The notes beneath the pieces are model-generated. The model did no database searches. It worked only from the letters and a program-made list of their open reading frames with translations, and had not been told where the DNA came from. Source: Phorcus lineatus (taxonomy: Eukaryota > Mollusca > Gastropoda > Trochida > Trochidae). Taken from it: 64,000 nucleotides of DNA. Below are positions 738-63,000 of the stretch, one piece after another; the stretch's first letter is position 1; each line of letters starts with the position of its first letter. The DNA is taken from positions 35,510,839-35,574,838 of the forward strand of contig OV121091.1 in the NCBI GenBank assembly GCA_921293015.1, in the 5' to 3' direction. The translations under genes and the position numbers were made by a program.

Positions 738-760
738 TCCAAAACGAGGCTTAGTGAGCA
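738..760 (+). repeat. left terminal inverted repeat of the ISL2EU-like element
   Basis: It begins TCCAAAACGAGGCTTAG and is the exact reverse complement of 8736-8758 over 23 bp; identity stops abruptly outside. Confidence 0.9.
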
Positions 761-786
761 CGACAAGGGAATCCCCGACTATAAAC

Positions 787-961
787 ATGGCGTCGTCAGC
801 GGTGACCTACAGTGATCGAGATTTGTCATTGCTGCCGGATTGGCTTCTGTCACAAAATTTTGTTGACAATTACCTGCAGTCGACGTCCAAGGACTCTGGG
901 AAGACCCATATGCACAAAGCATACAAGTATTTCCACGAAAAATACCTCAGAAACAGACAAA
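787..961 (+). CDS. exon 1 of the SWIM-YqaJ gene
   Basis: It encodes 58 residues starting MASSAVTYSD and including 'HKAYKYFHEKYLRN', a short motif common at the N terminus of SWIM-YqaJ proteins. It ends at donor GTAAAT (962-967), directly before a Tigger insertion. Confidence 0.8.
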
Positions 962-3900
962 GTAAATACAGTAGAACTCGGATATAACGAACTCCAAGGG
1001 ACCAGCGAATCTAGTTCGCTATATCCGGTGTTCGCTACTCACGTTTGGCAGCCATCTTGGATTATCAAAATGAAAACGTACATGTCTAAACACAAAAATA
1101 ACAAAGATAAATTATACTGCACTTCATATCTTTATTCTGGAGGATCAAGGAGCACGATAAAGTTTTTACAATTACATATCCATAGCACTAGTACGTTTGA
1201 CAAAGTCTGCAATCTTCGTTTGCATACCTCGTTTGGCCTTCTTCATTTTGTCGACAGCTTGACATACATCTGCGAGGGAATCAAACACAGCAGTGTCCGA
1301 CCCCATCGTCTCGCACACGAGCAGATCACGAAGTGTTTGTATTGCCGCATTGGCTTCAGCAAACGTTGGTTTCGGTCTTGGTTCGTCTTCGTCACTGTCC
1401 GAGTCGGGAGTTGATGAGACAGTGGGCGTGGCATGCTTCTTGGTAACTGACTCCAAGATTTCATCTTCAGTCGGGCGTTCCGCTACCAGGACATCATTGT
1501 CGGCATTGATGAAATCTTCCATTGTTACTCCATCTGGCTTATCTGTGATTTCCTTCCACATCACTCGTAGGTCAGAGAGCAGCATGTCATCGGCCTCATC
1601 GTCTGAATCTTCGGTTGACTCAGGCATGACGAAGCCCCCCTTCCTGTAACAATTGGTAATTGTCTTACACGTGACCTGTCTCCATGCAGCGTGGATCATC
1701 TGGACGGCGTCTAGAAGAGTGATCTTGTATTCCACTTTCTGGTCATATGCAGCAAGCATTTTTCTCATCACCTGGCCCTTGTAGAACTGCTTTAGGTTTG
1801 CAATTATGCCTTGGTCCATCGGTTGGATCTTCGACGTGGTGTTTGGTGGAAGAAAGACAACTTTCACATGTGTGAGGTTTTTCACGACAGGGTGGGCAGG
1901 GCAATTGTCAACAAACAACAAGATTTTGCGTTTTTGTGACAAGAAACGCAAGTGAACTGACATTCTGTGACCATGTCGGGTATTTAAACACAACATCTGT
2001 TTACTTAACAGTTAATTTTCTAACAACGTTGAAGATACCGCTGATTGACTAAGCTGACACGGAGTGAGTTTGCTCTAACAATAATGAGGAGCTTTGATTC
2101 ACCACGGACAATGTTGATCTTACCGCTAATTGAGTAAAGCTGACACTGATTGAGTTCGCTATAAGTGATGTTAATTGACCCTCGTAGTGCCCGCCAAGTT
2201 CCGATAAACGTCAATTTACTCTTAATTTTAAAAACATTCACACATAGACTAACATGTTGTTTAGGTGTTGCGAGAATAATTTTCCTAAATTTATTGCTTG
2301 TCGATTGGTTGTGATTTTTTACCTACAATTCCTTAATCTTCTCAGCTACATACTCATAATTTTCATTAAAACGTCATTCTAGCAGGATGAATTAACTGTA
2401 TTTCATAAATAAAAAAGAACAGAATCAACATACCTGTACATAGCCGGCAATGGAATCACACGTTGCACACACACTATTTTAATAATCATTCGAAAAACTG
2501 ATCAACTTGTTGATGAAAATTAATTATGAACATGCTGCTGACATGAGTTTACACCTGTACGTCTGCAAAATATGACTGTAAAGGAATGTTTACATAATTT
2601 ATGAAAATTATTCTCACAACACCTAAATAACATGCAAGTCTATGGTAATTACGTCACTGTGAACTTTAACATGGCAAATCATTGTAGCTGTGATATTTAA
2701 CTCAGTGATCTAATGGAGAGGTTTTTTTGTATTTCTGATTAAATACTTATACTGCTTAGAAAATTATAATTAAATTGTACTTCTGAGACGATTCCAATTG
2801 AAACTGAATAGTTTTCAAATGAACACCCATTTACCCATTTACACTAAATTGATAACATTTTTACATGTGCGGAAATAAATTTGTTTAGGCATTTTCTTTA
2901 TAGCCTTACTAGGAAAACATCTTAATATTGTATCAGGATGTATTACGTTATCTCTGATATATATCATTATAGGCCTGTGTTTTAACTTGACTTGTAATAT
3001 GTTTGAGTGACATATAGTCTGGTGCGTTAACCCAAACTTTATTTGATTCATCCTATGTGTGAAAGCAGTTAATAATTGGGAGGCTGTTTCTTTTAAAATA
3101 ATAAAATTGCAATTGAATACCATTTTGTGTCATAATTTCAGTCACAAAAACAAGCACAGGATGTAGGTTATCAGCAGAGTGCTTTGCTTCTCAGAGAAAC
3201 AAAGTCTATTCTATATGGGTAAATCATGAAACTCTGCATGCTTTATCCGAAAGATTTATGTTGAGTTATGTTCATTTTATGGCTGATTGGGATTTTTTAG
3301 TTGTCTAGTTATCAGTTATTTTCTTGAACCTGTCAATCATTCATTCTTTCATTCACTCATTCCTGTTTGGTGTTGACTTTAAGTTAAAGAGTTGAGGTTA
3401 TTAACCCCTGCCACTTAGTGGAAAGGAGATATAGGTCTGGGCTTAATGCCTGCGTCGGTCCGAGTTAAAGGGGACAGCTTTTCTCAGAAACTATTTAAGA
3501 TATGTTAATCAAACTTGCTGTGTGTCTTCATGGTATAAATAACTTGATGGAGTTCTAAAATGAGGCAATTACTTATACAGAGTTACGGCCCATGAAGGAA
3601 AATATTGGGAGCTTTAATGAAAACCTATTTAGCGGGGGTATTGATGACCATATCTTCTTGTTTAATGATGTCACAAATTGTGACTTGCAACCATTATTTA
3701 TCACTTAGCTTATGACTGATGAAATGAAATGACCAGAAATTCTGAATACCAATATAAGATAAGAAATGAAAACAAAATATGAATACTACACAGTACACTA
3801 TTGTTTTTCACTGATACGTTATTGCTTAAGTGGTGCTATTAAACCTTTCAACTTTTTGCCAGAATCAGTTTAGGACATTAACGGTATACAAGAACACAAA

Positions 3901-5292
3901 TTGTTTTTCTTGAAAGTTTTCTTTTAAATAGTATCATAACTGCTCTATAACTTGGGCAGCAAACCATTGTTTGTCACCAAATGCCCAAAATATATTTTTA
4001 GAAATAACATCAAATTTCCTATATGAGATGAATGCACTGTGAATGTCTGCTGGGGCTTGCAGGTGACACTGAGGTTTGATGGCGATACGGGTAGTGTGGA
4101 AGATGCAAAGTGTGAGTGTCCAAAAGCTCAGGGGAAAGGCTGCAGCCACATTGGAGCTCTACTTTACGACATCGGTCACTTAAAGAAACTGGGAAATAAG
4201 GTTATTCCAATAGATCCTGTGAAAACCTCTCAACCCCAGACATGGCATAAACCTAGGGGTGAGAAAATAACAGGCGTGGAAGTTCAAGATATTGTGGCAG
4301 TAGGATACAGTAAAAAGCACAATCCCATGGAAGCACCTAAAAGGACAGTGAAGTCTACATTATATAATCCTCTCAGAACTGAGATGCCAGATCATGCTGA
4401 TCTCTATGCATCATTGAATAAAGTTTCACCATCTTCTATGATTCTCCCAGCCCTGGAGCTTAGTGTCAGTGGGTCTGTCCAAATGGTTGAAACTTCTTTT
4501 GGTAAATTTCAGAAGGGATCTGTACTATCAGTACATCAGAAATTGAATCCCAAATACAACATTTCCATTTTTGACAATTTTGACTATCCTCTTTTACCAG
4601 TATCCAACAAGATAGAGAACAATATGGTTGCGTTTCCACTAACAAAGGAAAAGCAGTTGAAATTGGAGTCTTTGAAGTGCACAGTTGAAGAAGTCCACAC
4701 ATTTGAGGAGGAAACCAGGCTTCAGAGTGAGTGCGGTCTTTGGTTTAAACTTAAGAAAGATCGTCTCAGCGCTTCAAAGATGCGCAGTGTTCTTACCAGA
4801 AAAGAAAACTTTGAAAAACTAGCTGACGATCTAAGAAAAAAAACAAGACAAACACTGGCCATGGCAACAGGACTATCAAATGAACCTATTGCTGTTGATA
4901 GATATGTTCAGGTACTTGATGGAGCTAATGTTTATCCCGTTGGAATTGTCATAAGTCCTTGGGCTTTCTGGATTGCTGCCACACCAGATCGGAAAGTTTA
5001 CATACCAAATCGCCAGCCTGCTATTGGTATTCTAGAAATCAAATGTCCCTGTGTCACCTCTGTTCTAGAGGTTTCATACCTGAAGCGAGTTGGAGATCGC
5101 CTTCAACTGAACCACAACCATGCATATTTCACCCAAGTGCAGACTCAGCTCGGAGTCACAGGACTAGAGTGGTGCGATTTTTTTGTTTGGTGTGAAAATG
5201 ATTTTCATCTAGAAACTATCTTTTTTGATGCAGAAGAATGGCATGCCATCAAAGACAAAGCAGATCAATTCTTCTTCAACTACTATTTGTAA
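787..5292 (+). CDS. SWIM zinc finger plus YqaJ-type exonuclease protein of the ISL2EU-like transposon (join 787-961, 3142-3218, 4063-5292)
   Basis: Three exons join in phase into 493 codons plus TAA. Exon 1 ends after one base of a codon at a GTAAAT donor, exon 2 (77 nt) follows a tttcag acceptor and ends in phase 0 at GTAAAT, and exon 3 follows a ttgcag acceptor. The protein has a SWIM zinc finger (C101-x-C103-x7-C111-x-H113), then a YqaJ/lambda-exonuclease-like nuclease fold with E358, D393 and the E409-I-K411 pair in 'LEIKCPC' as probable metal-binding residues. YqaJ proteins are 5'-3' DNA exonucleases; in ISL2EU elements the second gene is thought to help process or repair DNA during transposition, which is inferred from the family. 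Start choice: the first ATG in frame, 27 nt inside the terminal repeat. No defect is visible. Confidence 0.87.
1172..1996 (-). pseudogene. Tigger transposase, C-terminal DDE part
   Basis: The 274-codon open frame matches the second half of a pogo/Tigger DDE transposase: 'LLFVDNCPAHP' holds the second catalytic aspartate and 'PPNTTSKIQPMDQGI' the third acidic site. 'AWRQVTCKTITNCYRKGGF' and an acidic tail rich in Asp and Glu follow, as in Tigger proteins. The CENP-B-like DNA-binding domains and the first catalytic aspartate are missing, so it cannot act alone. The coding part has no stop, which suggests fairly recent truncation. Confidence 0.85.
2036..2172. repeat. diverged direct repeat pair, ~85-bp period
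   Basis: 2036-2085 and 2121-2172 share 'taccgct-attga-taa-gctgacac' and 'gag-ttgct'. They lie where the missing 5' end of the Tigger should be and may be its sub-terminal repeats. Confidence 0.5.
2243..2644. mobile_element. MITE with ~49-bp inverted termini
   Basis: 2243-2291 and 2596-2644 are inverted copies with few mismatches, sharing for example 'ttaggtgttg' and 'gagaataatttt'. The 402-bp element has no coding content. It lies in intron 1 of the SWIM-YqaJ gene. The superfamily is not assignable because no target duplication is obvious. Confidence 0.75.
3142..3218 (+). CDS. exon 2 (77 nt) of the SWIM-YqaJ gene
   Basis: This small exon restores the frame between exons 1 and 3 and encodes 'LSAECFASQRNKVYSIW'. 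In SWIM-YqaJ proteins this position carries the strand leading into the SWIM finger ('...SQR...VY..WV'). It is flanked by tttcag and GTAAAT. Confidence 0.8.
3219..4062 (+). other. intron 2 of the SWIM-YqaJ gene
   Basis: The intron runs from GTAAAT to ttgcag. Around 3380-3620 there is a less AT-rich stretch ('cgtcggtccgagttaaaggg') that looks like an interspersed repeat, but no second copy is in this window. Confidence 0.5.
4063..5292 (+). CDS. exon 3 of the SWIM-YqaJ gene (SWIM finger and nuclease domain)
   Basis: It encodes 409 residues. The SWIM finger lies in the first 30 codons and the YqaJ nuclease domain at about residues 310-440 of the whole protein ('KLKKDRLSASKM', 'ATPDRKVY', 'LEIKCPC'). 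The frame opens a few codons upstream in the intron, but ttgcag at 4057-4062 is the natural acceptor because it matches the phase of exon 2. Confidence 0.88.
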   Translation: MTLRFDGDTGSVEDAKCECPKAQGKGCSHIGALLYDIGHLKKLGNKVIPIDPVKTSQPQTWHKPRGEKITGVEVQDIVAVGYSKKHNPMEAPKRTVKSTLYNPLRTEMPDHADLYASLNKVSPSSMILPALELSVSGSVQMVETSFGKFQKGSVLSVHQKLNPKYNISIFDNFDYPLLPVSNKIENNMVAFPLTKEKQLKLESLKCTVEEVHTFEEETRLQSECGLWFKLKKDRLSASKMRSVLTRKENFEKLADDLRKKTRQTLAMATGLSNEPIAVDRYVQVLDGANVYPVGIVISPWAFWIAATPDRKVYIPNRQPAIGILEIKCPCVTSVLEVSYLKRVGDRLQLNHNHAYFTQVQTQLGVTGLEWCDFFVWCENDFHLETIFFDAEEWHAIKDKADQFFFNYYL

Positions 5293-6065
5293 AATTGCTA
5301 TTGCATAATCTTCTCTCAATTTAGAGATTAACTTGTACTAAGGATCAGTTTTCCAGTTGACCTGTTGCAAATCAGAAATAGTGCTCTGCCTATTGTCTCA
5401 ATTTGCATACAGTTTCAAGTATGTTAGATTTTATCAATTCAACCACTGATATCCAAATTAAATCAGTCTGTTATTATGCTTACTAGTATACAACTCTTTA
5501 AAAGTATTGCAACATCATAATTGACTGTTGTGATAAAAATTGTTGATGTTCAATAGATAAGGTTATAATTTGAAAGAAAATGATGTCTGTAGACAAAACA
5601 ACAACACACTCTTCAGTATTGACCAAGTTTATAATTCTTTTCTTCAAATGCATTTGTTAGATGTCTGAATATCTAAGATTTTATACAGTAGTACAGGGAT
5701 ATCATATTCTTAGAGTTTTAGAAATACAATTTGAGAAGGTAAAACTGGTTATGTTATTTATTGCTAACTGAATTAGCCTGGAAACGACTCAGAACAGAAA
5801 TCCTGAATCTGCATTATTTGTATTAAAAGCAACTCTGATATTCCTGACAAAGTATTTGGCCAAAAATACACAACTTTGCACACATCCATTGCAAGCTAAC
5901 AAAAAATTTTAAAGATAATTACTTGCTTAAAAATTACAAATTTCAGCAACAGTCTATTCTGCTTGATCAAATAATGTAATTATACAAGAATATTTATATA
6001 CAAGTTTCATTTATGTGACTCAACATCTGAGGAGTGGTTCAAGGAATGACCAGAACATACACTTA
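5293..6065. other. convergent intergenic spacer of the ISL2EU-like element
   Basis: AT-rich DNA between the stop codons of the two transposon genes. It must hold both 3' UTRs. No further gene or repeat was recognised. Confidence 0.5.
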
Positions 6066-7346
6066 TTATTTTGCAATTAATGGTCCCTGGAAATTTGAAA
6101 GAATACATGCAACTGACCACAATTGATTCATAGAACCAACCATTGACATTGGAACTTCATTGTCAAAAATATGATTTTCTTTCACACGTCTGTTGAAGCG
6201 TTCCACATGCACACGTAAACTAGCAATTTCCTCATTCAATTCAACTTGTTCAGGTGTGAACTGTCCATTATCACTGGTTGATAAAAATGGCGGCATGTTG
6301 AGACCAATGTTCTTCTCTGCAAAATACTTTCCAAGTCGAAAACCTTTATCTGCCATAACACTGTCTCCTTCCTCAAGTAAATCCCTAATACCACATAATT
6401 TTACGATTTCATTGTCCGACATGCATCCAGTGTATAGGGGTGATAAGAAAGTCATTGCACCATGAGGGGCTACACCAATCAGAGACTTGAAAGTTGTTCT
6501 GCTCTTGTAATTTGAATAAGCTTGGCTATTTAATACCATTGATGAAGGGACTTGACATGTGATTTCTGTACAGTCCAAGACAACTCGGGTTGAAGAATAC
6601 TTCGGCTTGAAATCGTCAGGCATCAGACAGTCTATTTGTTCCCTTGATAGCCACAAAGGAATGCTTCCCAAAACAAAATACAAATAGTTCAGCCATGTCA
6701 GAACTTTACGACTCACAGTCTGTACAGTACACTCAAATCTATCAGATAAATCTTCTTCCAACAGTCCCAAACGCATACGACACAGAAACATAAACAGTTC
6801 ATCTATCAATAGCATGTTCCGTTTCCTCCCAGCGAGAGATGTGGTATCGCGAGCCTGATAGTACATGCTTTTCATGTTTGATGCTGTGGGCTGGATCCAA
6901 TTGAAAAATGCCATGAAAACCTGATAAGTTATAAATCCAGTGTAGAACCTTATTTTGGAGTCATCGTATGAGAAGCGGTTGATGCCAAAACGACTAACTT
7001 TCAATTTTTCTGTCAGCAATTGGTTTTCTGCTCGAAGTTTCTCAATTTCCTCATTACTTGTTTTTATAATGTCCTTGAGTTGGTCACCCTCAAGTTGTTG
7101 TGTATCACCAGTAGTTTCTGTATTAACAACATCAGATTCTTCAACCTCCATTACCGCCTCTGTATCATTGACTACTGTCTCTGGTATGTCTGGTCTCCTT
7201 GTAGCAAGCCCTGACCGTCTCTTCACCTCTTGTGACCAAGAAAACTTTGATGGAACAGCTCCGGACTTCAGCATACGTTTAACAGGTGTCCATTTGTAGT
7301 CTGTTGCTTGGAAGTGTTTGCTACACACAACTGTTGACTTGCTGAT
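6066..7346 (-). CDS. exon 2 of the THAP-DDE transposase
   Basis: It starts after 'tttatatag' and carries the second half of the THAP domain and the whole DDE core. All three catalytic acidic residues are present. It ends with TAA at 6068-6066. Confidence 0.88.
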   Translation of the reverse strand: MSKSTVVCSKHFQATDYKWTPVKRMLKSGAVPSKFSWSQEVKRRSGLATRRPDIPETVVNDTEAVMEVEESDVVNTETTGDTQQLEGDQLKDIIKTSNEEIEKLRAENQLLTEKLKVSRFGINRFSYDDSKIRFYTGFITYQVFMAFFNWIQPTASNMKSMYYQARDTTSLAGRKRNMLLIDELFMFLCRMRLGLLEEDLSDRFECTVQTVSRKVLTWLNYLYFVLGSIPLWLSREQIDCLMPDDFKPKYSSTRVVLDCTEITCQVPSSMVLNSQAYSNYKSRTTFKSLIGVAPHGAMTFLSPLYTGCMSDNEIVKLCGIRDLLEEGDSVMADKGFRLGKYFAEKNIGLNMPPFLSTSDNGQFTPEQVELNEEIASLRVHVERFNRRVKENHIFDNEVPMSMVGSMNQLWSVACILSNFQGPLIAK

Positions 7347-8724
7347 CTATATAAATAAAAGAAATACTTAAGATTACTTTGAACATTTAAAGTATATTTA
7401 ATTACTGAAGTCCATATAATGTCTTATCAATAGCAAGTAACATAAGTTTTTTTTATCACTTTATTTCTTTTTTCTTGGGTACAGCATATCCAGTGTCATC
7501 ACAAGAAAGTAATACAATAAATTAACATATTCACATTTGTATACTATATACAAGTAAGTTCATCTAGACAAAGTTTATGACAAGACTACCAGAAAGAAAC
7601 AAAAGAATCGTATCTGCAGTGTGAGTAAGCGTTTGATTTATGCAATTGATAATTATGTTTTAATTTCGGCTTCAGACCAGCAAGGGAATGTAATAGATTT
7701 GCAAGTTTTCGGGAGTAAATGTATTCCTTTGTAAGCATGAAAATTAAATTCAATACATTGTTTCTTCTTTCTTTATATCCAAAAATAATGGTTTCTAGGT
7801 TTTGTGTTAAACAGGTATCTGTCTCTCTTTCGATCCATTCAAGTAGGTCTTGCCATAATCTTTTAATAATTGTGCAATCATATAATAAGTGACGAATTGA
7901 TTCTAAATAGAGTTTTTTCTAACAAAAGTTGTTTCAGCATGTTTGAAGTTTTTCAAAAGATACTTAGTTTTTGAATCATACTTATATCTATTTAAATAGG
8001 TTTTGAAAATACCTAACATTATCAGTTTATAATATTTATAGGTTTTGAAAGTGTTTTCAGAAGTTCAGGGAATGACACGGCTGTACTGTTGATGGTAGAT
8101 CTAGATCTAATTGTCCTATTTTCGATCACGTTCAAAAATCAAGAATGGATTGTGTAGCAGACATTTTGCATCCAGAAACTACGAAATTAAGCGATATGAA
8201 TAAATGCCATAGGTACAAGTCTGGAACTTTGATAAAGAAAACACATTACTGCAGTAATGGTACAGTAAGACTAGATTACGATTGATAGACTAAGTGATCG
8301 AAATCAGGACGAATGTTACAATGTGCTGTTACAAATTTCAAGTACAAATCGAAATACCTGCAATAAGTACAGCGTATTTTCTCATAATCCTAAAAGTATT
8401 CACTTTAAGTTGAAGTTTAACCACCACAATCATTACAGAAAATAATTCAAAACATTTAATTCACCTATCGTTACATGTACATTAGATCTGTAATCCTGAT
8501 ATCTGACATGAGTGTCGTACCTTAAAAAAGGGACCTTCGTCCCGGCGAATTTTCACAAGCCATGCTTTCCTTAACGTCTTGTCCTTCGGAAAGTGGTGAA
8601 ACCATACCGGGGAATCTTCGGGGTATCGGCTGTCTGATTGGCAATTATACACGCAACAGTGTTGTGAACTTCTTCCTCCACCCGTATCACGGGATAGCAG
8701 AACGTCATATAATTTGGCAGCCAT
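6066..8724 (-). CDS. THAP-domain DDE transposase of the ISL2EU-like transposon (join 8724-8521, 7346-6066)
   Basis: Two exons join in phase 0 into a 494-residue protein. Residues about 21-105 form a C2CH THAP DNA-binding domain (C23/C24, C28, C76, H79 in 'VCSKHF', with the closing 'AVPSKFSW'). An acidic linker and a short coiled coil (around 'EEIEKLRAENQLLTEKLK') follow. Then comes a helix-turn-helix region and a Harbinger-like DDE_4 catalytic core with D326 in 'LDCTE', D401 in 'MADKGF' and E450 in 'HVERFNRRVKE'. It would bind the element ends and cut and paste it. An upstream ATG at 8742 lies inside the terminal repeat; the ATG at 8724 is preferred. No stop or frameshift is present. Confidence 0.88.
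7347..8520 (-). other. intron of the THAP-DDE transposase gene
   Basis: The intron runs from donor GTACGA (8520 downward) to acceptor 'tatag' (7347). It contains a LINE 3' fragment at 7587-8060. Nothing else was recognised in 8061-8520. Confidence 0.7.
7587..8060 (-). pseudogene. LINE ORF2 C-terminal fragment nested in the transposase intron
   Basis: The reverse strand at 7905-7587 reads 'RHLLYDCTIIKRLWQDLLEW', then 'IIFGY' and 'NLIFMLTKEYIYSRK', ending at a stop. This is the C-terminal pattern of L1/Tx1-like non-LTR retrotransposons (HL..C....W..L..W, then a short helix before the stop). Upstream pieces continue in other frames to about 8060. Only the 3' end is present, as in a 5'-truncated insertion. 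Confidence 0.7.
8521..8724 (-). CDS. exon 1 of the THAP-DDE transposase
   Basis: It encodes 68 residues including 'CCVYNC' and 'WFHHFPKDKTLRKAW', the first half of a THAP domain, and ends 'GPFFK' at donor GTACGA. Splicing to 'ISKSTVVCSKHF' completes the domain. Confidence 0.86.
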
Positions 8725-8735
8725 ATTTGAAAGCT

Positions 8736-8758
8736 TGCTCACTAAGCCTCGTTTTGGA
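8736..8758 (-). repeat. right terminal inverted repeat of the ISL2EU-like element
   Basis: Exact reverse complement of 738-760. Confidence 0.9.
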
Positions 8759-8796
8759 GTGTTGACCCAATGACCTGCATAAATTTTGAGGAGGGC

Positions 8797-12262: not shown

Positions 12263-12956
12263 AGACTTAAAGTATTTTGATAGTAATTTGTGACTAATTC
12301 AACATTTCCCATTAAAACTCTTATGCAGTAAAACTAACTTTTCTTCAGCAGCTGTATTTCCTGTATGCATGCAGCGTATTTACTGTTTATTATAGTCTAT
12401 ATATATGTATATTTAAGAGTGATTGCTGTAATAAATGATGTATTAGTGAGAGGGGACGTTCCCCTTTATATACAAATGAACAGATTATAAAAATATTGGT
12501 TGACCAACGTTCCAATAATGAACAAAACTGATAGGAAAGACATGCCATTAGCGAATGATAGTAAGATCAAAGAGGTGTCAATATGTCTGTAATGGGGCTG
12601 ACGAGGCTGCTTGTTTAATACCAGCTGATATGCACTACAAAGTCACTTATCATTATCTTGATAAACTATAAAGGGAAAGCGTTCTAACCTTATCTATGTA
12701 TTCCTTAATCATGTTTGATGCCATTCAATGTTCTGAGTGAATTCAGTAAATCGTGATCCCAATCTTATTTGTTCATATCATTATAATAGATATATTGAAA
12801 TATCGCCATGAACATGGACAGTTTATCTTAAATCGTCCCACGAGCTCTGTGAAAGTTTACCATATTCAGGTGAACGCAGAGTTTTGAAATCTAAAACATG
12901 TAAATAAATTTCAGCTCTTCCTCTTCCGTTCTGTACATAAAATTATTGCCTTTAGG
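12263..12956. other. unassigned AT-rich DNA
   Basis: Nothing recognised. Confidence 0.45.
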
Positions 12957-13262
12957 TGAGGTGAATTGGGGGTTATCGCCGCTTGCAATAGTATTTTACT
13001 TATGTCCCGGCTTGTAATATTAAAACGGGTAGAAAGCCGACAACACTAGTTAAACTATGCATTGCGGTGACACCTCCAAACATCGGCTTGAACTATATGG
13101 GTGGTACTGCGCTGAAATTCAGTGTAGCATTGCACCATGACCTTTATGCATGTAGAACAGCTCTCTACTGCAGACAAGTTGCCAAGAACCTGGCTGGATT
13201 TGAACCATTGACCTCTTGAGCAGAAGCCGAACGCTCTTACTTGTTGGCTATCTCGGCCCCCG
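12957..13262 (-). repeat. tRNA-derived SINE, copy B (with tRNA-like head)
   Basis: Read on the minus strand it begins at about 13262 with 'gccgagatagccaacaagta', an A-box-like segment. A perfect B box 'ggttcaaatcc' follows at about 13205, then the family body, ending in 'ccaattcacctcacc'. This shows that the family is a tRNA-derived SINE oriented with the pol III head opposite the CACT-type tail. It is diverged from the other copies. Confidence 0.75.
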
Positions 13263-14694: not shown

Positions 14695-14905
14695 GTGAGG
14701 TGATATGGGGTTTAACGCCGCTTTCAAGAGTATTTAACTTATATGGCTGCTGCTAGTATTGTTGCAGGGGAAACCATTGTGTCTATGAGTTGCGTAGAAA
14801 TCTGCGAGCAGGAACTAGTGAACCATGGGTGGTACTGCGCTGAAGTTCAGTGTAGCATTGTACCCAAACCTTGCTGCTTGTAGAACTATTCACTACTGCA
14901 GACAA
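14695..14905 (-). repeat. tRNA-derived SINE, copy C (head missing)
   Basis: It matches copy E (57075-57306) from 'gtgaggtgatatggggttta' to 'actgcagacaa'. The tRNA-like head is absent, as expected of a 5'-truncated retrocopy. Confidence 0.8.
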
Positions 14906-16012
14906 AGTAGCCGAGGCACAAGGGCAATTATGCAATAAAGGGAATAGAAAAGGTCACTAATTACACTTGGACTTCTCAAAATAACATTTTACGGACAAAC
15001 AAACTTCCTCCTATTATATCATGAAACAACCTTGAGACATAAAGTGTTTCATCTTTTCACTTTTGCTAATCGACTTGGTTGGCACTCGACTATGGTTTTT
15101 AATAATATTTATAAGTTAAAGGGTTAGAATGAACCCAGTAAACTTGTATTCTCCATACTGCCTGAATTTCTCAAGGGCAAACTGTATATGTCCAAAATAA
15201 TTTTCGAATATAGATTGAAATATCATACATGCTTTGTATCAAACAACTGCGATTTTGGATATTTTATACGAGTCATTACAATTTTGTGATAAGTTTCTTT
15301 TGTTAACCGTAAACAAGCCCAGGCAGCTTTAGTCATAGGTAGTCCATTCCTTAAGGGCTGTTCTAGCCAGCGTTTCGTGCTCATATTGGCTATTTTATGG
15401 CTTTTGAAAACAAAAGTACTCAATTTAGCTTTCTATCGATGAAATAAAATGCTTTTTGTCCTTGATGATTAACCTGCAATCAAGTAAATATGACTGAAGA
15501 ACATCTTAATCCCTTTACTGATAAGTATATAGTTATATGGTATACCTGTAACTTAATCGATTTTATATACATGACAATGTCATTATTAACTATAGCGTCT
15601 GCCTTTTTCATTTTTCAGACTGGAAGAAAGATAACAAATTTCTCATGTTGTAGTTCATCGGAATTCTTTCTGGTCTGTTAGAATAGATTTTGAACCTGAA
15701 TACGTACATTTGATTCTGTACAACTTATGTAATAGATAACATGAGTATGGGTGGTTAGTAATATGGAGAGATTATATGCATTGTTTATATTAACGTCAGA
15801 TGGGTGTGCGTCATTATACAAGAAACAGATCATTATCTCTGAAAGAAATTTATCAATTTATACAATATGAAGACTTTTATACCAAAATCCAGCAATTGCC
15901 AAAATAGAAAAAAGAAAAATACATTTTCAAAAGAAAAAACGAAATGAATAAATCTAATAGAATTACTAATCCCAGTAGTCAAGTAATTATAGATATAGAG
16001 GATTTTATTTGA
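14906..16012. other. unassigned AT-rich DNA
   Basis: Nothing recognised. Confidence 0.45.
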
Positions 16013-18601: not shown

Positions 18602-19930
18602 ATGTCTTCTGACGCACAACTACTTCTAGATACAACTTACAGCGAGTTTAATAACTTTGTATGTAACGCCACAAGGCGACATAATGTTGGTAGATATTCT
18701 GGTGGTATTTCAGTCTCTGTCCGAAGGAATATTTCTTCTTTTTTTCCTGGGAAAACTGCATATTCCTCAAGCTGCTATACAATGGGGTACACCATTTATT
18801 TGTCGGTTTTGAGTATATTCACCCAGACAGATCGCCGGAATATTTCAACTCCGAAGACAATGGTATAGACATTTTAGAGAATAAACTCTCAGAAGTATTG
18901 TACGATTACATGGATACCAGTAAGATTGTGTTGTTCGGTGACTTTAATGCTAGAACTGCTAATGAACCTGATTGTATAGTTAACGATGATACTGACTATA
19001 TCCCTTATAGTTAACGATGATACTGACTATATCCCTTATAGTTAACGATGATACTGACTATATCCCTTATAGTTAACGATGATACTGACTATATCCCTTA
19101 TAGTTAACGATGATACTGACTATATCCCTTATAGTTAACGATGATACTGACTATATCCCTTATAGTTAACGATGATACTGACTATATCCCTTATAGTTAA
19201 CGATGATACTGACTATATCCCTTATAGTTAACGATGATACTGACTATATCCCTTATAGTTAACGATGATACTGACTATATCCCTTATAGTTAACGATGAT
19301 ACTGACTATATCCCTGTTGGCGATGATTATTTACAGGACCTATTTTCTGTTTCACGTAATTCTTGTGATAATGTTGTGAATGCATATGGTAAGGGTCTTC
19401 TTGACTTATGTAAGCTAATGAATATCCACATCGTGAATGATAGAACTTTACCTGACATTCCAGGAAATCTAACATATATTTCAAACAAAGGCAGTAGTAT
19501 TGTTGATTATGTAATCGTGTCATCTGAATTATTCACTAATGTTGAGAGTTTTGAAGTTAAGGCTCGCACAGAGTCAGATCACCTTCAGATAGTATGTGTA
19601 CTCCATGATGTTACACAGTCGGACACTAGAGATAATGATATGGAAATGACACCGTTTCATTATGTAAGTTTCAAACTACGTGAAGATCAGAGTGAATTTC
19701 TTAACAACCACATAAATGACAGCATAGATAGAGGTTTTCTAGATGAATTTAGTGAATTACTTCACACTGATATTGACGCTGCTATTACTAAACCGACATC
19801 AGTACTACAATTAGCCGGTGAACAAGCTGGAGCTATAAGATTTGTATTACCACGTCGTAGACAGCTACGTCAACCTCCTTGGTTCGACCGAGAATGCATT
19901 AAATTAAAAACTGAAAAATACAGACTTTAA
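18602..19930 (+). pseudogene. LINE apurinic-like endonuclease, broken
   Basis: Readable blocks are 'RYSGGISVSVR', then in another frame 'KIVLFGDFNARTANEPD', the conserved GDFN motif. After the tandem array come 'DYVIVSSELF' and 'ARTESDHLQIVCVL', holding the catalytic SDH. These are the landmarks of EEP-type LINE endonucleases. At least one frameshift before 18840 and the 31-bp array at 18980 break the frame. Confidence 0.85.
18980..19315 (+). repeat. 31-bp tandem array (10 full copies plus 26 bp) inside the LINE endonuclease
   Basis: The unit TTAACGATGATACTGACTAT plus 11 further bases repeats at 18980, 19011, 19042 and so on to 19290 with essentially no divergence. It is an expansion of LINE codons reading 'VNDDTDYIP'. 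Because 31 is not a multiple of 3, the array rotates the frame. There are no spacers, so it is not CRISPR-like. Confidence 0.95.
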
Positions 19931-19975
19931 AACCGTTTGTGAAGACATAGATGTAAATCTAATCTTGATGCATAT

Positions 19976-21240
19976 GTGAATGCTAAATACCTTTTTAAAA
20001 GTTGCATAAAAATTAAAAAAGACGAGTATTTGGCTAAGGCTGCAGACGAGATAAAGGCCGCAGCTAGAAATTCAGATTGTAAGATTTTCTGGAGTACACT
20101 TAAACGTCACATTAAAAAAACAGTTGTGAATGAGAGTATTTCCGCAAGTCAATGGTTCAAGTATTTTAGCGACCTTCACTCTTGTAAAAAAAACAGTGTT
20201 CGCTCTGACTTCGATAAATCTGTCTATGATTTTGTTTTGAACCATAACTGTCTTAATTGTGAGGATTTCTCATTCTCCAATGAAGAGGTAATAAAATCTA
20301 ACAACGAGTTGAAATGGAATAAGGCAGCAGGGCGTGACGGAATACCTCCTTCTTTTTATAAATCAGCTCTTACGTCTTTGGTACCATATTTGAAAGATTT
20401 ATTTAATGCTGTATATGCTAATGGTATATTCTCTTCTGTGTGGTATGTAGGTATGATTATCCCCCTCTTCAAGTGTGGCAACAAATCAGACCCATCTAAT
20501 TACCGTGGAATATCTCTCTTAAACATATCTGGGAAATTATTTGCTAATATTTTAGAAAGGCGTCTAAGCGCCTGGGTTGATATTAATGAATTGTTGGATG
20601 AAGCTCAAGCTGGATTTAGACCCCATTACAGTACAACCGATAATCTGTTTGTTCTGCAGTGATTGTGCACTAAATACCTTTCCAAATCTAAAGGACGTTT
20701 TTATTGCGCTTTCATAGATTTTAGGAAAGCGTTTGATGTTGTTGACCATAAAAAGCTGTTATTTATGTTACATAACAAAGGCTGCCATGGCAAAATGTAT
20801 GGTATTTCAAGAAGTATGTATGATACTGTTTCAGCGTGTGTTCGCACTAGCGCTAGTGTTACCGAAATATTTGATACTCCACAGGAGTGAGGAAAGGCTG
20901 TGTCCTTAGTCCCTTGTTGTTCATCGTTTTTTTTAACGAATTAGTAATTAACTTGTATGAAGCATGTAATAATGGAGTTTTTCTTACCCCACAAATGAAA
21001 GATTTACTTTAACTTTTGTTTGCAGACGATATAGTAATGTTTTCATTAATTGTTAATGGCTTACAGCGTCAACTGAATATTTTAGAAACATTTTGCGACA
21101 AATGGGGTTTGGAAATAAACGTGGATAAATCATATATTATTGTATTTAGAAATGGAGGAATCATGGCTAAAAAGGAGAAGTGGACATTTCGAGGCAAACC
21201 ATTGAAGATTGTGACTTACTACAAATATTGGGTCTTTTAG
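19976..21240 (+). pseudogene. LINE reverse transcriptase, broken
   Basis: Blocks in order are 'KAAGRDGIPPSFYKSA', 'GMIIPLFKCGNKSDPSNYRG', 'DEAQAGFRPHYSTTDN', then after a TGA at 20660-20662 'FYCAFIDFRKAFDVVDH', and after more breaks 'FADDIVMFS', the catalytic FADD box. Order and spacing match the fingers, palm and active site of non-LTR reverse transcriptases. Stops at 20660, 20888 and near 21010 make it inactive. Confidence 0.92.
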
Positions 21241-21639: not shown

Positions 21640-22916
21640 ATTAACATGGGAAAAATTTTCAAAATGCACTTAGAGACTTGCAACTTTTTTTAAACGATGC
21701 GCAATAGCATTGCAAGCAAAAAAGTCAATCATTGTAAATTCGTATCATGCATTGTTTGGCCGCCATATTGCTTTTTTTGACTTTCATAAAAATGCAAGAC
21801 CCCATGCGTCTTTGAGAATCTTCTTCTCTGAAGATACTTGCATCAAAGAGCTAAAACTCTCCAATTGTGTAGCTGTGGCATTGGGAATATCAGGGTGATT
21901 CAGATTTTGATGAAAGTCAAATATTTATTTCTCAGCAACCCTTCAAAGTCGGCCGATTTAGCTCATGTAAGCATGTTCAAAGGGAGATAACTCTAAAAGT
22001 TAGACTCACAATTGCTACATTTCTTCAGGAATATAAGACCAGTATGTGGACTTGACGAAACTGTTAAAACATCGATCGCGAACAGTCATTTTCGTTCACA
22101 ATAAACGATCAAAAACAGCAAAAAACTTTTGAAAAAAAATTAACATAGGGTAATTTTTCAAATTGCACTTAGAGACTTGAAACTTGATTTGAAAGAAGTG
22201 TAAGAACAATACAAACAAAAAAGTCAATCATGACGATTTCATAACTATTATAGTTATTTCGCATTTGCAACTTATTTGTTCCAGAAATTGCTCGTCAATA
22301 TTCGACAATTCTTGTTAACACGATTCAGCCCAAACCGCTAAAGCTATTACAGCCAAACTTGGCAGCTTGATAGAGCTTCATGAGAGGATGCCACAATAAG
22401 CTTTTGGGCTTAATCGGCTTAAGCGTTAAAGGCACAGTACGATCGAAAGTTCGAAAAATTAACATGGGTTATTTTTTCAAAATGCACTTAGAGACTTGCA
22501 ACTTGTTTTAAACGACAGGCAATTACATTTGGAGCAAAAAAGTAAACCATGGCAAATTCGTAGCATGAATAGTTTAGCCGCCATATTGCTTTTAGTGATT
22601 TTTGAGATGCATCTTAAAAAATCTTCTTCTCTGAAGATACTTGCATCTAAGAGCTCAAACTCTCCAATAATGTAGCTGAGACATTGGGAATTTCAGGGTG
22701 ATTCAGATTTTGATGTCAGTCAAATATTTTTTGCTCACCACTTCTTTGCAATAACCGGAGTATGCTTTGGAGATAAGGTCAGATGAAACTTGCTGCTGTA
22801 GATTAATGCAATCTCCAATCTTCATGAAAATTTCAGTGAAGCTGGCTAACATCGCTATGTTTGTACTGAATGTGCTTTTTATGCGCTGAATCCTTTTGTC
22901 GTCGCTTGCGACTATA

Positions 22917-57000: not shown

Positions 57001-60000
57001 CAATGTTAAGCAATACAATTTGTACTCAAATCAAAACACCATTTAGAGTGGGTGACCATTGATAAAGCATTCAGGTGAGGTGAGGTGATATGGGGTTTAA
57101 CGCCGCTTTCAAGAGTATTTCACTTATATAGCGGCTGCTAGTATTATTGCAGGGAGCAAGCCCGCAACACCATTGTTGCTATGCATTGCGTTGAAACTTG
57201 CGTTTATCAGCTGGAACTAGCAAACCATGTGTGATACTGCACTGAATTCAGTAAAGCATTGCACCCAAACCTGACTGCGTGTAAAGCAGTTCTCTACTGC
57301 AGACAAATAAAGCATTCAGTCCAAGTTACCATGGATAAAGCATTCAGCCTTTGTGACCAAAAATAAAGCAAAGAGACAAAGGATAAAACATTCAGACCTG
57401 GTAACCAATTACAATAATATTATGCCTGACTGAAGAAAAATAAAACATTCAACCTTTGGAAGGATAATCATTTAGTCCTGGGTATCAGAGTATCAAACAT
57501 TTATCTCAGTGACCCAAGATGATCAGAGGAAACAGAAGTTATTCAGATTTTTCAGAAAAAGGCTAAAAATTCAGACAAATTCGGACTGCAAAATACTAAC
57601 AAGTCATCTTTAAAATGTTATGACTTAATTAGAATATTGTTAAACACAGCAACACATACCATATTATTGCTGAGGTTTTTCATCTTGTCAACAACATTTC
57701 TCAAAATTTTCATTGTTGGCATGGCAATGCTAACCTACAAAGAAAGACAAAGGAATAATGAATGAACATGTAACTGTGGTTCTATTTAGTCTTTGTAAAC
57801 AAACACATTTGAATGATAGATAATTCAGACTTTTATACATTGGTTAATAAATGGCATGTCCTTCAAATGATTTGACACAATATTTTACATGTATTTTCAA
57901 ATTTTCAAAAGTGAACAAAATAATTTTTTAAAATATCAATGTGAGTTTCCTCATAAACTACGAGTCAATTAATTGTATTGATACACCCCTGAAGACATCA
58001 TCGTTGATGTCATTATTGAGATTTGATGACAGCTTACAGACGTAAACAACCCTTCCCAATCATTTACTTGAGATTTCAGCCTGTTGAACACATGTACCCT
58101 CCTGTAATCATGAAGAGTTCTAAAACTGATCATTGTGCGGTTATCAAGTTTTTCATGAAAGAAGGGATGAATGCGACGGAAATACATATATATTTGACCA
58201 ATGTATATGGGAAAGAAGCCCCTCAATATTCTACAAAATGGTCAGCTGAGTTTAAGCGGGGTCGCAGCTCCTTGGACGATGACCCATGGTCAGGAAGGCC
58301 TGTTGAAGCCATTACAGATGATATGGTTGCACGGGTCCAGTACTTAATCTTGCACGATTGTAGAAGAAAAGTGGAAGAGATATCTTCAGAGTGTGGAATT
58401 TCTCATTGAAGTTTTGACACAACCAAAACCACCTAAAACTACAATAACAGGAGCCTATCTTTCTGACTTGTTGAAGCAATTCAGCGGCGATCAAAAAGAA
58501 GAGGCGCGGCATGTTGACTCCTGGAGTCAGTCACTCCTCCAGTGCACAAGAGTCGTATTGCACTTTATTTCAACAATGTGGCTTTGAATAACTTAACCAT
58601 CCTCCCTTACAGTCCAGATCTGGTGGCAATCAAATTCTATCTGTTTCGCAATTTGAAATCACACTCATGAAGTACAAGATTTGACAATGATGATGATGAT
58701 AACTGAGGCGTGGCTGAGGAGCCAGTTAGAAGACTTATACCACAAGGGCATATGGACAAAGTGCATTGAGGTCAAGGGAGATTATATTGAAAAATAAAAT
58801 CAGTATCACAACCATTGGCTTCTGTTTTATATCCACTTCTATTAACCTTTTGACTTCCCCTAGTATGTAAAACCATGCCCATTTTAAATTGAATAACTTC
58901 ATTCAAAAAGAACATTTGTTTCAAAACTTATTATAATCCCATAACTTACATCAAAGTGTGGCATCTCAGGCTCCTCAAAGTCTTGCCAGTGTCTCTTTGG
59001 GACCACATGGACTGGAATGTCATGAGTCACAAGTCGCTGATGGGAACCAATGGTTGGCTATAGACAGAAGAAAAACATAAAAGTAATTATTTACAACTTT
59101 GACAATTATTTTTTAAGGACTAACCACTGTAAGAGTATTAACTATAGGTCAAATAAAATATTGGCACCTCACATTTTGAGAAAAAACATTGATTATTATC
59201 TAACTCATTTATGTTTTTTCAGAGATCTATATTTTTGGTGACTTCATCTCTGACTCATAAGGTTTACTCTCTAACTCACCATGGAATAATATCTCTAAAT
59301 CCTAAGGTCAACACTTCCTAATCATTGAATAATATTTATAACTCATCAGGTCAACTCTAACTGATCATGTAATAATATCTCTTACTTGCCCGATAAATCC
59401 CCCCCTAATCATGGAATTATATCTCTAAATCCTAAGGTCAACACTTCCTAATCATTGAATAATATTTATAACTCATCAGGTCAACTCTAACTGATCATGT
59501 AATAATATCTCTTACTTGCCCGATAAATCCCCCCCTAATCATGGAATTATATCTCTAAATCCTAAGGTCAACACTTCCTAATCATTGAATAATATTTATA
59601 ACTCATCAGGTCAACTCTAACTGATCATGTAATAATATCTCTTACTTGCCCGATAAATCCCCCCCTAATCATGGAATTATATCTCTGAATCCTAAGGTCA
59701 ACACTTCCTAACCATTGCAGGGATCACCCTGGAAAAATGGGTCTATGGGAAAAAATCCCCTTCATAGTTAAAGCAATGGGATTTTTAGGAGAGGTAATGG
59801 GATATTTTAGAAAACAAGATATTTTTAAGAATCGTTTATTACAAATGTTATAATATATTTTAAAAAATGAATTGAACTTCTTTATTCAATATTGGAATTT
59901 GGAACAGTTCAACACTTGTCAACTTAATTTGAAAAAATTATTGATGTCTTGATCACATTTTAGTTTTATGTGCCCGTGTTCTGCCAAGCATTTGGGACCA

Positions 60001-63000
60001 ATTTCCCCACTTCAGAAAAAAAATGGGGTCAACTTTTACTGGGTACAGGTCAAGTCAGTTGCAAGTAAAAATCAAATCTAAAATCACTCTATACAAAATT
60101 ATTTCTTTTGCTTGTATTTACATTATGTGCAAAATATGTGCATGCAATGTGTACATTACTTTAATCAGAGTTCAACAAATGATTAATATGATGTTTTAAA
60201 ATATATAATATATAAAAAAATAACCTTTTTGTTTGCAGCTAACACATCTCTATCATGTTTCATGTAAAAATAATAAACAGCAACATGTTCTTTCTTTCCC
60301 TCAAAAGAGAAAAATCTTAATGATAGTGACTGTCACTCAGCCATTTATTTCTACTATAAACTTTATTAATTTCTGTCCAATTATTAAAATATATTTTATC
60401 AAAATTACAGTATTTTTTCAATTTTGAAGAAAATGATTTCCCAAGCAAGTCATGTGTGAGGAAAAATGCAATTGAAAATATTTCATTACAATTGACGGTA
60501 CGTCATCTTTTAACAACAAAAAAGTGAACGATATTTTATCACAGCTTTTTTTTTTAGACATAAATAGGTAACATGATGGAAGGAAATAGTAAAACAAAAC
60601 GAAATATAAATCACGATTCGCGTCTGAGAAGTTGGCAATGTCGATGATTATTGATTCGTTTCTGTATTCAAAATATATCAAAATAATTAATTCCAAACAA
60701 TTAATAGGTCTATGATTATGTGATGAATATTTACGCATTCAAATAAATATTTTTTGTTCCTAATACAAACTTATAAAACGTATGATAACTTATATATTTC
60801 ATGGAAACATCGCGAAAAGCGTCTGCTTGTTCATGCCCGATTTGCGAGTCAGTAGAGTTACTTCCCTTGCATATATAATGTAACGCCAATTGTGATTGGC
60901 GCAGTAGTGAACGAAAGCTTCTCAACGTCCAATGAAATAAAGTGTTTTAGAATAAGTCGGTCTATGCGATATTACGGGCGCTCTTTACCGATCCAAATAC
61001 GAAGTAGCTCTAATATGAATTGACATTTAATAAAAAGTTTTCTGAAGATCTGAAGATTGAAAATGAAAGAAAGATCCGATTGCATTTTATTAATGCGATT
61101 TTTATCGCACTGCATATTTTTAAATGGGATATTTATAATTTTAATGCGATATTATCGCAAAATCGCGGCCCAAAGTGATCCCTGCATTGAATAATATTTA
61201 TAACTCATCAGGTCAACTCTAACTGATCATGTAATAATATCTCTTACTTCCCTGATAAATCCCCCCCTAATCATGGAATTATATCTCTAAATCACAAGGT
61301 CAACACTTCCTAATCATTGAATAATATTTATAACTCAGCAGGCCAACTCTGACTGATCATGGAATTATATTTCTAACTCACAAGGTCAAGCCTCCCTAAC
61401 GTTTTAATAATATCTCTAAATCACAAGATCCACTCTTCCCTAATCATGTAATAAGATCTCTAACTCACAAGGTCCACCTCCACTGTCAGACAGGGGCTGT
61501 GCTTCTTGGTCAGCTTGATCTTCACCCACTTAGCACTGTGGGCTGTCTTCATAGCTCTTAACAGGTTCTCAGGTGTCAGCTCCAGGTATATCTCATTAGC
61601 ATCAGCAGACAAACCCTCCATTGCATACTCATCAAAGAAGTTCCCCTGAAACATTTATTTTATGTTAGAGCTCCTATTGTATTGTATTTCACAGTACAAG
61701 GGTGTTATATGTTCAAGGTCATACTTAATGATTTTCTAACAGTTACTATACTGATTAATTGATAATGTGTTAAATGTGTTAAATGTAACAATTGAGTTAT
61801 TCAAATACCTTGTAATTTCATTTCAATGTTTTCTTTGATTGATAACAGTATACACCATTAAAATTAGCAATGGCATACATTTCTTTAATAACACTGAAAA
61901 CTACAAAGAATAAATAAAAATTGGACGGCTTAAAAACATTCATTAAAGGCCAATTAGTTTTATTGAATTATCTGTTTTATAATTCTTCTATTATATATAT
62001 TTATATTTTTTGGTTCAATCATACTTTTTTTCAGTGAGAACATACAAGTGGTTCATTGAATACCAAACTGCCTACATACTGGACTAAATCTTGCAGACAT
62101 TGTATCGATATATCCTCTTATATTGGAAGTGTCTGAGAGTTATTAATTGCCCTGTGAATTGATGCTTCTGCATTTGATAGAACAATATAACTCATCATGT
62201 TTGGTTCATGCATCATTTATCATAAGGGATGTCATGATTTAGGTACTTCGCGATATGATACATATCATGATACTTATGTCACATAAAGATACGTAACACT
62301 ATTCAATAAATACGAACTTTTTGTAGAGATACCATTTTACTGATTTTACTTAATTCAATATCTCCAACAATAGAGTAAGTTGAGTAATCAACAGTTGAAC
62401 ACAAAAACAAGCAAACCGATTTATTAATCTCATATTTTAATATCTTTCTCAACTTTGACATCAACAGAAACTCTAATTGAACCACGATGAACCACCTGTA
62501 CACATCTCTCCACAAGTATAGCTATTACCTGAGGGAGTTCACACCATATCTGTATTCCTCCATTGATAGCTTGTTCAGAGAGAATAAAGTAGATTCTGTC
62601 TGGAGTAATGCGAAGTACACATGTTTTGATAAGCTTGGATACTGTCCCAACAACCTCTGAAAGTGGGAAACAAAAACATAAAACACTGAAAAAACTTTCA
62701 AATGAATGATATAAGATCATAAACTTTTGGTTTGAACTGAATATCAAGTTTGTAGTGATGAATACACTTCTGTTTATTATCAAAATAATATATAAACTTA
62801 TTAGTCTTATTATACTGATATACGAATTATTGATGACTACAATTTTATGAAGATCATTCACATTAACTTGAACAGTGTTGTCAGACATGAGACATCTCAA
62901 TCTCAGTGTTGAACAATCATTTATTCTAACTAGTGTAACCATGCAATCTTTCAATTAAGTTCTTTGGTTTCTACTTTCAATACATTCAGACCAGCTTTTA

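Follow-up and report, generated by a model that had tools for sequence, protein, structure and literature searches.

A candidate autonomous ISL2EU-type transposon with a spliced THAP-DDE transposase gene and a spliced SWIM-YqaJ nuclease gene in the gastropod Phorcus lineatus

We analyzed a stretch of 64,000 nt from the genome of Phorcus lineatus (contig OV121091.1, positions 35,510,839 to 35,574,838; hereafter the window) and found that positions 738 to 8758 most probably constitute an ISL2EU-group DNA transposon of the cut-and-paste type (PHIS/Harbinger-like superfamily) with the coding capacity for its own movement. We assign a probability of about 0.88 to this reading. The ISL2EU coding plan consists of a transposase with THAP, helix-turn-helix (HTH), and DDE domains and a second open reading frame (ORF) with a YqaJ domain (PMC4482050). 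The gene pair described below is thus of a known kind, as ISL2EU elements with a transposase and a YqaJ ORF have already been described. As an autonomous element, the copy is only a candidate, judged from its sequence.

The element is bounded by two perfect 23-bp terminal inverted repeats, located at positions 738 to 760 on the forward strand and 8736 to 8758 on the reverse strand, exactly as the initial annotation had reported. When the first 22 bases of the repeat were searched with up to three mismatches, only these two places were found in the window, and no match was obtained in 100 shuffles. ISL2EU elements insert at A|AT|T and duplicate the AT (PMC4482050). Since AT is palindromic, a target-site duplication (TSD) of this sequence lengthens the apparent repeat, so that the outer T/A pair may come from the target site, leaving repeats of 22 bp. 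In this 22-bp reading, the repeats occupy positions 739 to 760 and 8736 to 8757; T738 would be part of an AT duplication (737 to 738) on the left, and AG (8758 to 8759) is found in place of AT on the right. A single substitution could explain this mismatch. The flanking bases are TTA and GTG, or TAT and AGT in the 22-bp reading.

The transposase gene is encoded on the reverse strand by two exons separated by an intron of 1174 nt. Exon 1 (8521 to 8724, 204 nt) starts with the codon at position 8724, which in the 22-bp reading lies 33 bp from the right end of the element, and encodes the first half of the THAP domain. Exon 2 (6066 to 7346, 1281 nt including the stop codon) encodes the second half, followed by HTH_Tnp_4 and DDE_Tnp_4. 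The exons join in phase to give a protein of 494 residues with no internal stop in the translated model. Taken singly, exon 1 matched THAP with 36.2 bits (profile positions 1 to 45) and exon 2 with 21.5 bits (positions 50 to 87), the latter below the cut-off of 23.9, and the joined protein matched the whole profile (1 to 87 of 87) with 63.9 bits. The completion of the THAP domain upon joining is evidence for the junction that does not depend on splice signals. Furthermore, the junction 8520/7346 ranked first among 48 in-frame open joins with a splice score of 8.44, followed by 6.85 for the runner-up; all splice scores reported here use rounded frequencies, and the ranks are rough.

The spliced transposase also matched DDE_Tnp_4 (2.6e-37, 128.3 bits) and HTH_Tnp_4 (1e-10, 41.4 bits) above the Pfam cut-offs. 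Three catalytic residues, D326, D401, and E450, were identified as motifs read inside the DDE_Tnp_4 match rather than from an alignment to a solved structure. The N-terminus matched the THAP domain structures solved for THAP1, THAP2, and THAP11. No match for the transposase was obtained in PHROGs, and its lone match in NCBIfam was far under the cut-off. Structure prediction of exon 2 from the single sequence gave a mean predicted local distance difference test (pLDDT) score of 39.

The second gene lies on the forward strand, convergent with the transposase gene, and encodes a SWIM-YqaJ protein of 493 residues without an internal stop in three exons. Exon 1 (787 to 961) begins with a start codon at position 787, which in the 22-bp reading lies 48 bp from the left end of the element, and its frame (787 to 987) contains no Pfam family. 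It is followed by an intron of 2180 nt and by exon 2 (3142 to 3218, 77 nt). Exon 3 (4063 to 5292) encodes the SWIM zinc finger (C101, C103, C111, and H113) and the YqaJ nuclease (E358, D393, E409, and K411). Exon 2 was first chosen by eye, with related proteins as a guide, and was ranked afterwards: its score of 2.38 was narrowly the highest of 114 in-frame open candidates of 40 to 250 nt, ahead of a shorter exon with the same donor (2.19) and an exon inside a nested transposon (1.74). The acceptor at position 4063 received a poor score (-0.35). Because the SWIM match starts at residue 84, which is the last residue of exon 2, exons 1 and 2 are beyond test by domain score. Their assignment rests on splice signals, on phase, and on a presumed resemblance of the exon 2 residues to related proteins. 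We also considered a gene without exon 2. Among the donors and acceptors tried, 15 direct joins were open, including 862 to 4063, and donor 962 could be joined only to 4028 or 4103. This form is less preferred on the basis of the rank of exon 2 among the 114 internal-exon candidates and its presumed likeness to related proteins, and no domain test excludes the direct joins.

All three Pfam matches of the spliced SWIM-YqaJ protein were above the cut-offs: YqaJ with 4.2e-13 (50.3 bits; cut-off, 22), Viral_alk_exo with 4.6e-7, and SWIM with 8.2e-5. The four YqaJ residues listed above were assigned from an alignment to the structure of a phage-type exonuclease, 3syy, in which the E, PD, ExK, and QxQ motifs correspond. 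In contrast to the protein encoded here, 3syy is a chain of 216 residues showing no SWIM or transposase match. The protein also matched a RecE-like exonuclease in PHROGs (6.8e-13) and the lambda-exonuclease family TIGR03033 (3.7e-11, 43.4 bits), the latter below the curated cut-off of 68.05. A phage search with exon 3 yielded exonuclease domains only, with 26.5 to 30.5% identity over 36 to 42% of the exon among the 20 of 46 matches listed. The motif alignment to 3syy and the RecE-like match suggest that the nuclease is catalytically competent. These results bear out the earlier description of a THAP-DDE transposase with all three catalytic residues and a SWIM-YqaJ nuclease, both open across introns.

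The SWIM finger of the second ISL2EU protein may have been little noted in the literature. The words "swim" and "intron" do not occur in the main text of PMC4482050, and a literature search combining YqaJ, SWIM, and transposon returned no paper on ISL2EU by title; Repbase entries and subscription papers were outside its scope.

We then compared the element with published descriptions of the ISL2EU group. The THAP, HTH, and DDE domains in one transposase, the second YqaJ gene, the short terminal repeats (22 to 23 bp here, within the 6 to 259 bp given for the group), and the animal host are all shared with ISL2EU elements, which occur in animals (PMC4482050, PMC9179366). The coding content thus agrees with the published definition, and the ISL2EU label given in the initial annotation was retained. 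Several observations weigh against this assignment. No perfect TSD of 2 to 10 bp, and none of 5 to 10 bp with one mismatch, was found at seven offsets (-3 to +3) around the ends, whereas ISL2EU elements duplicate AT. The repeats begin with TCC or CC and not with GG; the GG start is described as usual for ISL2EU (PMC4482050) and is hence no defining exclusion. The element is 8.0 kb long versus a mean of ~4.84 kb for autonomous ISL2EU elements (PMC4482050), an excess that is due in part to insertions within introns. In addition, no second copy was present within the window. Searches with a reach limited to close relatives detected no transposon relative in IMG/VR (queries, transposase exon 2 and SWIM-YqaJ exon 3) and no relative in prokaryote genomes (query, transposase exon 2); an element of animals would not be anticipated in these collections.

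Two other transposon groups were considered. The Spy group of the PHIS superfamily, a sister clade of ISL2EU (PMC11304231), likewise lacks a TSD. However, Spy elements mostly carry one ORF and insert within AAATTT (PMC4482050, PMC9179366, PMC11304231), and we set a Spy element aside in view of the second gene and of the flanks, which are not AAA/TTT. The KolobokE lineage, in turn, also has a lambda-exonuclease-like nuclease alongside its DDE transposase, so that such a pairing is known in another superfamily (PMC9587614). A Kolobok-type element is nevertheless extremely improbable here. The catalytic domain is DDE_Tnp_4 accompanied by HTH_Tnp_4, the nuclease is encoded by a separate convergent gene and not downstream of the transposase domain, and reading residues 401 to 450 revealed no C/DxxH between the second D and the E. 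Moreover, the termini are YY (Y, pyrimidine) and not 5'-RR (R, purine), and the flanks contain no TTAA, the TSD of Kolobok elements.

We also examined the state of the copy, which had been called apparently intact. With respect to the perfect repeats and the two open genes this description stands; in the strict sense it is not confirmed, in view of the missing perfect TSD and of other elements inserted in an intron. Intron 1 of the SWIM-YqaJ gene contains, on the reverse strand, a transposon remnant from position 969 to at least 2011, composed of an end sequence (969 to 993), which occurs once in the window, and an ORF (2011 to 1172) that matches only the later part of the Pfam family DDE_1 (profile positions 72 to 177 of 177). 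We take this remnant to be of the Tigger/pogo type. The same intron contains an inverted repeat of 402 bp (2243 to 2644) that resembles a miniature inverted-repeat transposable element, with 49-bp arms that are 90% complementary, and no other copy of it was found in the window. The transposase intron contains an open frame of 110 residues on the reverse strand (7586 to 7918), which gave one Pfam match below the cut-off and none in the PDB; by its resemblance, it may be the C-terminal end of a long interspersed nuclear element (LINE) protein. The coding exons are free of these insertions. Searches of Rfam at gathering thresholds and with ARAGORN (bacterial code) yielded no match.

The nested DDE_1 remnant and the 402-bp inverted repeat, together with the missing perfect TSD and the weak acceptor at position 4063, would be consistent with a dead or immobilized copy, that is, an old insertion that has lost its TSD and the full mRNA of one or both genes. 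Such a state is compatible with ISL2EU identity and denies only present activity. On the other hand, 987 codons are free of stops, the proposed splice dinucleotides and the terminal repeats are intact, and a mobile copy could have carried the nested elements along. We therefore regard immobilization as a serious possibility that we tend to doubt. The stop-free state limits how far the genes can have diverged neutrally since insertion, to ~4.6% and ~4.4% per site when each is taken singly (P = 0.05, indels ignored) and, by arithmetic from these figures, to ~2.3% for both together. These results indicate either that the copy is of fairly recent origin or that selection acted on its genes until recently in mobile copies. 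Selection of another kind, in which transposase and nuclease were kept as a domesticated pair of host genes, would also account for two genes that remain open despite nested insertions. However, perfect terminal repeats still flank the genes, and selection for a host function is not expected to preserve them, making domestication very improbable.

For an ISL2EU element of this structure, we propose the following mode of action. Each gene would be read inward from its own end, with a promoter that coincides with the terminal repeat or lies immediately beyond it; both genes, as modeled, start within 50 bp of a terminus. The transposase would use its THAP domain to bind the ends and its DDE site to cut and join DNA. 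The SWIM-YqaJ protein, which is lambda-exonuclease-like and has its own zinc finger, would most likely be recruited to the transposon ends or the donor-site ends and resect the break. Resection would steer repair to annealing or homologous copying, by which the element would be restored or multiplied. The ends, the open reading across the proposed introns, the domains, and the catalytic residues were observed in the sequence; the promoter positions, the end binding, the role of the nuclease, and any present activity are inferred. The role in break resection is proposed tentatively, at slightly less than even odds. Against it, the function of the additional ISL2EU ORFs is stated as unknown in PMC4482050. 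Conversely, the presence of a lambda-exonuclease-like partner in KolobokE, which belongs to another DDE superfamily, favors the view that the nuclease does contribute to transposition or repair.

Furthermore, both start codons lie in the motif AANATGGCKKC, at positions 784 to 794 (forward strand) for the SWIM-YqaJ gene and 8717 to 8727 (reverse strand) for the transposase gene. The motif occurs six times in the window versus 0.41 expected, with a pattern that was set after the sites had been seen. The other four sites are located at the end of the Tigger-type remnant (1048 to 1058), antisense in the transposase exon (6284 to 6294), and at 21759 to 21769 and 22577 to 22587, which correspond to each other in two copies of a single repeat; the sites thus represent five independent places. 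Five of the six sit in transposon ends or in the two copies of this repeat. The strict motif surrounds 6 of the 2734 ATGs in the window, and AANATGGC surrounds 18 of them. Real start codons generally favor A at position -3 and GC after the ATG. Because of this preference and the post hoc pattern, the enrichment figure overstates the significance.

The YY1 motif is CGCCATNTT (PMC7481187), and it fits the SWIM-YqaJ site fully and the transposase site with one difference. The start-codon motif also resembles the translation initiator of short 5' untranslated region (TISU). TISU has an AAGAUGG context, is bound by YY1, and is found in mRNAs with a median 5' untranslated region of 12 nt (PMC2518114). 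TISU appeared in none of the listed literature matches to combinations of transposon, transposase, TISU, and YY1. In the ProtoRAG transposon of lancelets, the terminal repeats contain a motif to which YY1 binds; YY1 also represses the transposon genes, helps precise repair after excision, and suppresses transposition (PMC7481187). ProtoRAG is likewise a two-gene transposon, with a YY1-binding motif and promoter activity at its repeats. In contrast, ProtoRAG encodes unrelated RAG1/RAG2-like proteins and its YY1 binding was shown by experiment (PMC7481187), whereas the present element has only a match in sequence, located directly inward of the repeats. The YY1/TISU-like start sites are hence a post hoc lead and not a result. 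It is conceivable, and in our estimate unlikely, that both ends serve as combined starts of transcription and translation, with a host YY1-like factor binding each start codon and with promoter, start codon, and transposase-binding end within ~50 bp.

Other repeats and gene fragments were observed in the window. A dispersed repeat of ~180 to 230 bp is present in four copies (168 to 345, 12954 to 13186, 14695 to 14915, and 57078 to 57307), one of which, on the opposite strand, lies ~390 bp to the left of the transposon. At 18975 to 19315, a 31-bp unit is repeated 11 times in tandem with 100% matches, and this array overlaps the beginning of a frame that resembles a retrotransposon endonuclease (19259 to 19930). 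This frame is one of two adjacent frames (19259 to 20662) with weak endonuclease and reverse transcriptase matches, both below the Pfam cut-offs, which probably represent a decayed non-long terminal repeat (non-LTR) retrotransposon. A frame at 58020 to 58409 shows a weak match to HTH_48 of Mos1 transposase, just below the Pfam cut-off, and a reverse-strand frame at 62430 to 62954 contains part of a gene similar to Hus1, which acts in the DNA-damage checkpoint of the host. The minisatellites at 59280 to 59717 and 61185 to 61481 are related to each other and share a 43-bp unit and a higher-order period of 130 bp.

With its two open genes and perfect ends, this copy provides a usable starting point for testing the role of the ISL2EU YqaJ ORF. 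The motif shared by the two start codons also points to a specific and inexpensive test of two-gene control. If the proposed control is correct, host YY1 would couple the expression of the transposase and the nuclease to the occupancy of the ends, as in the unrelated ProtoRAG, and two-gene transposons of animals would have arrived at YY1 coupling more than once.

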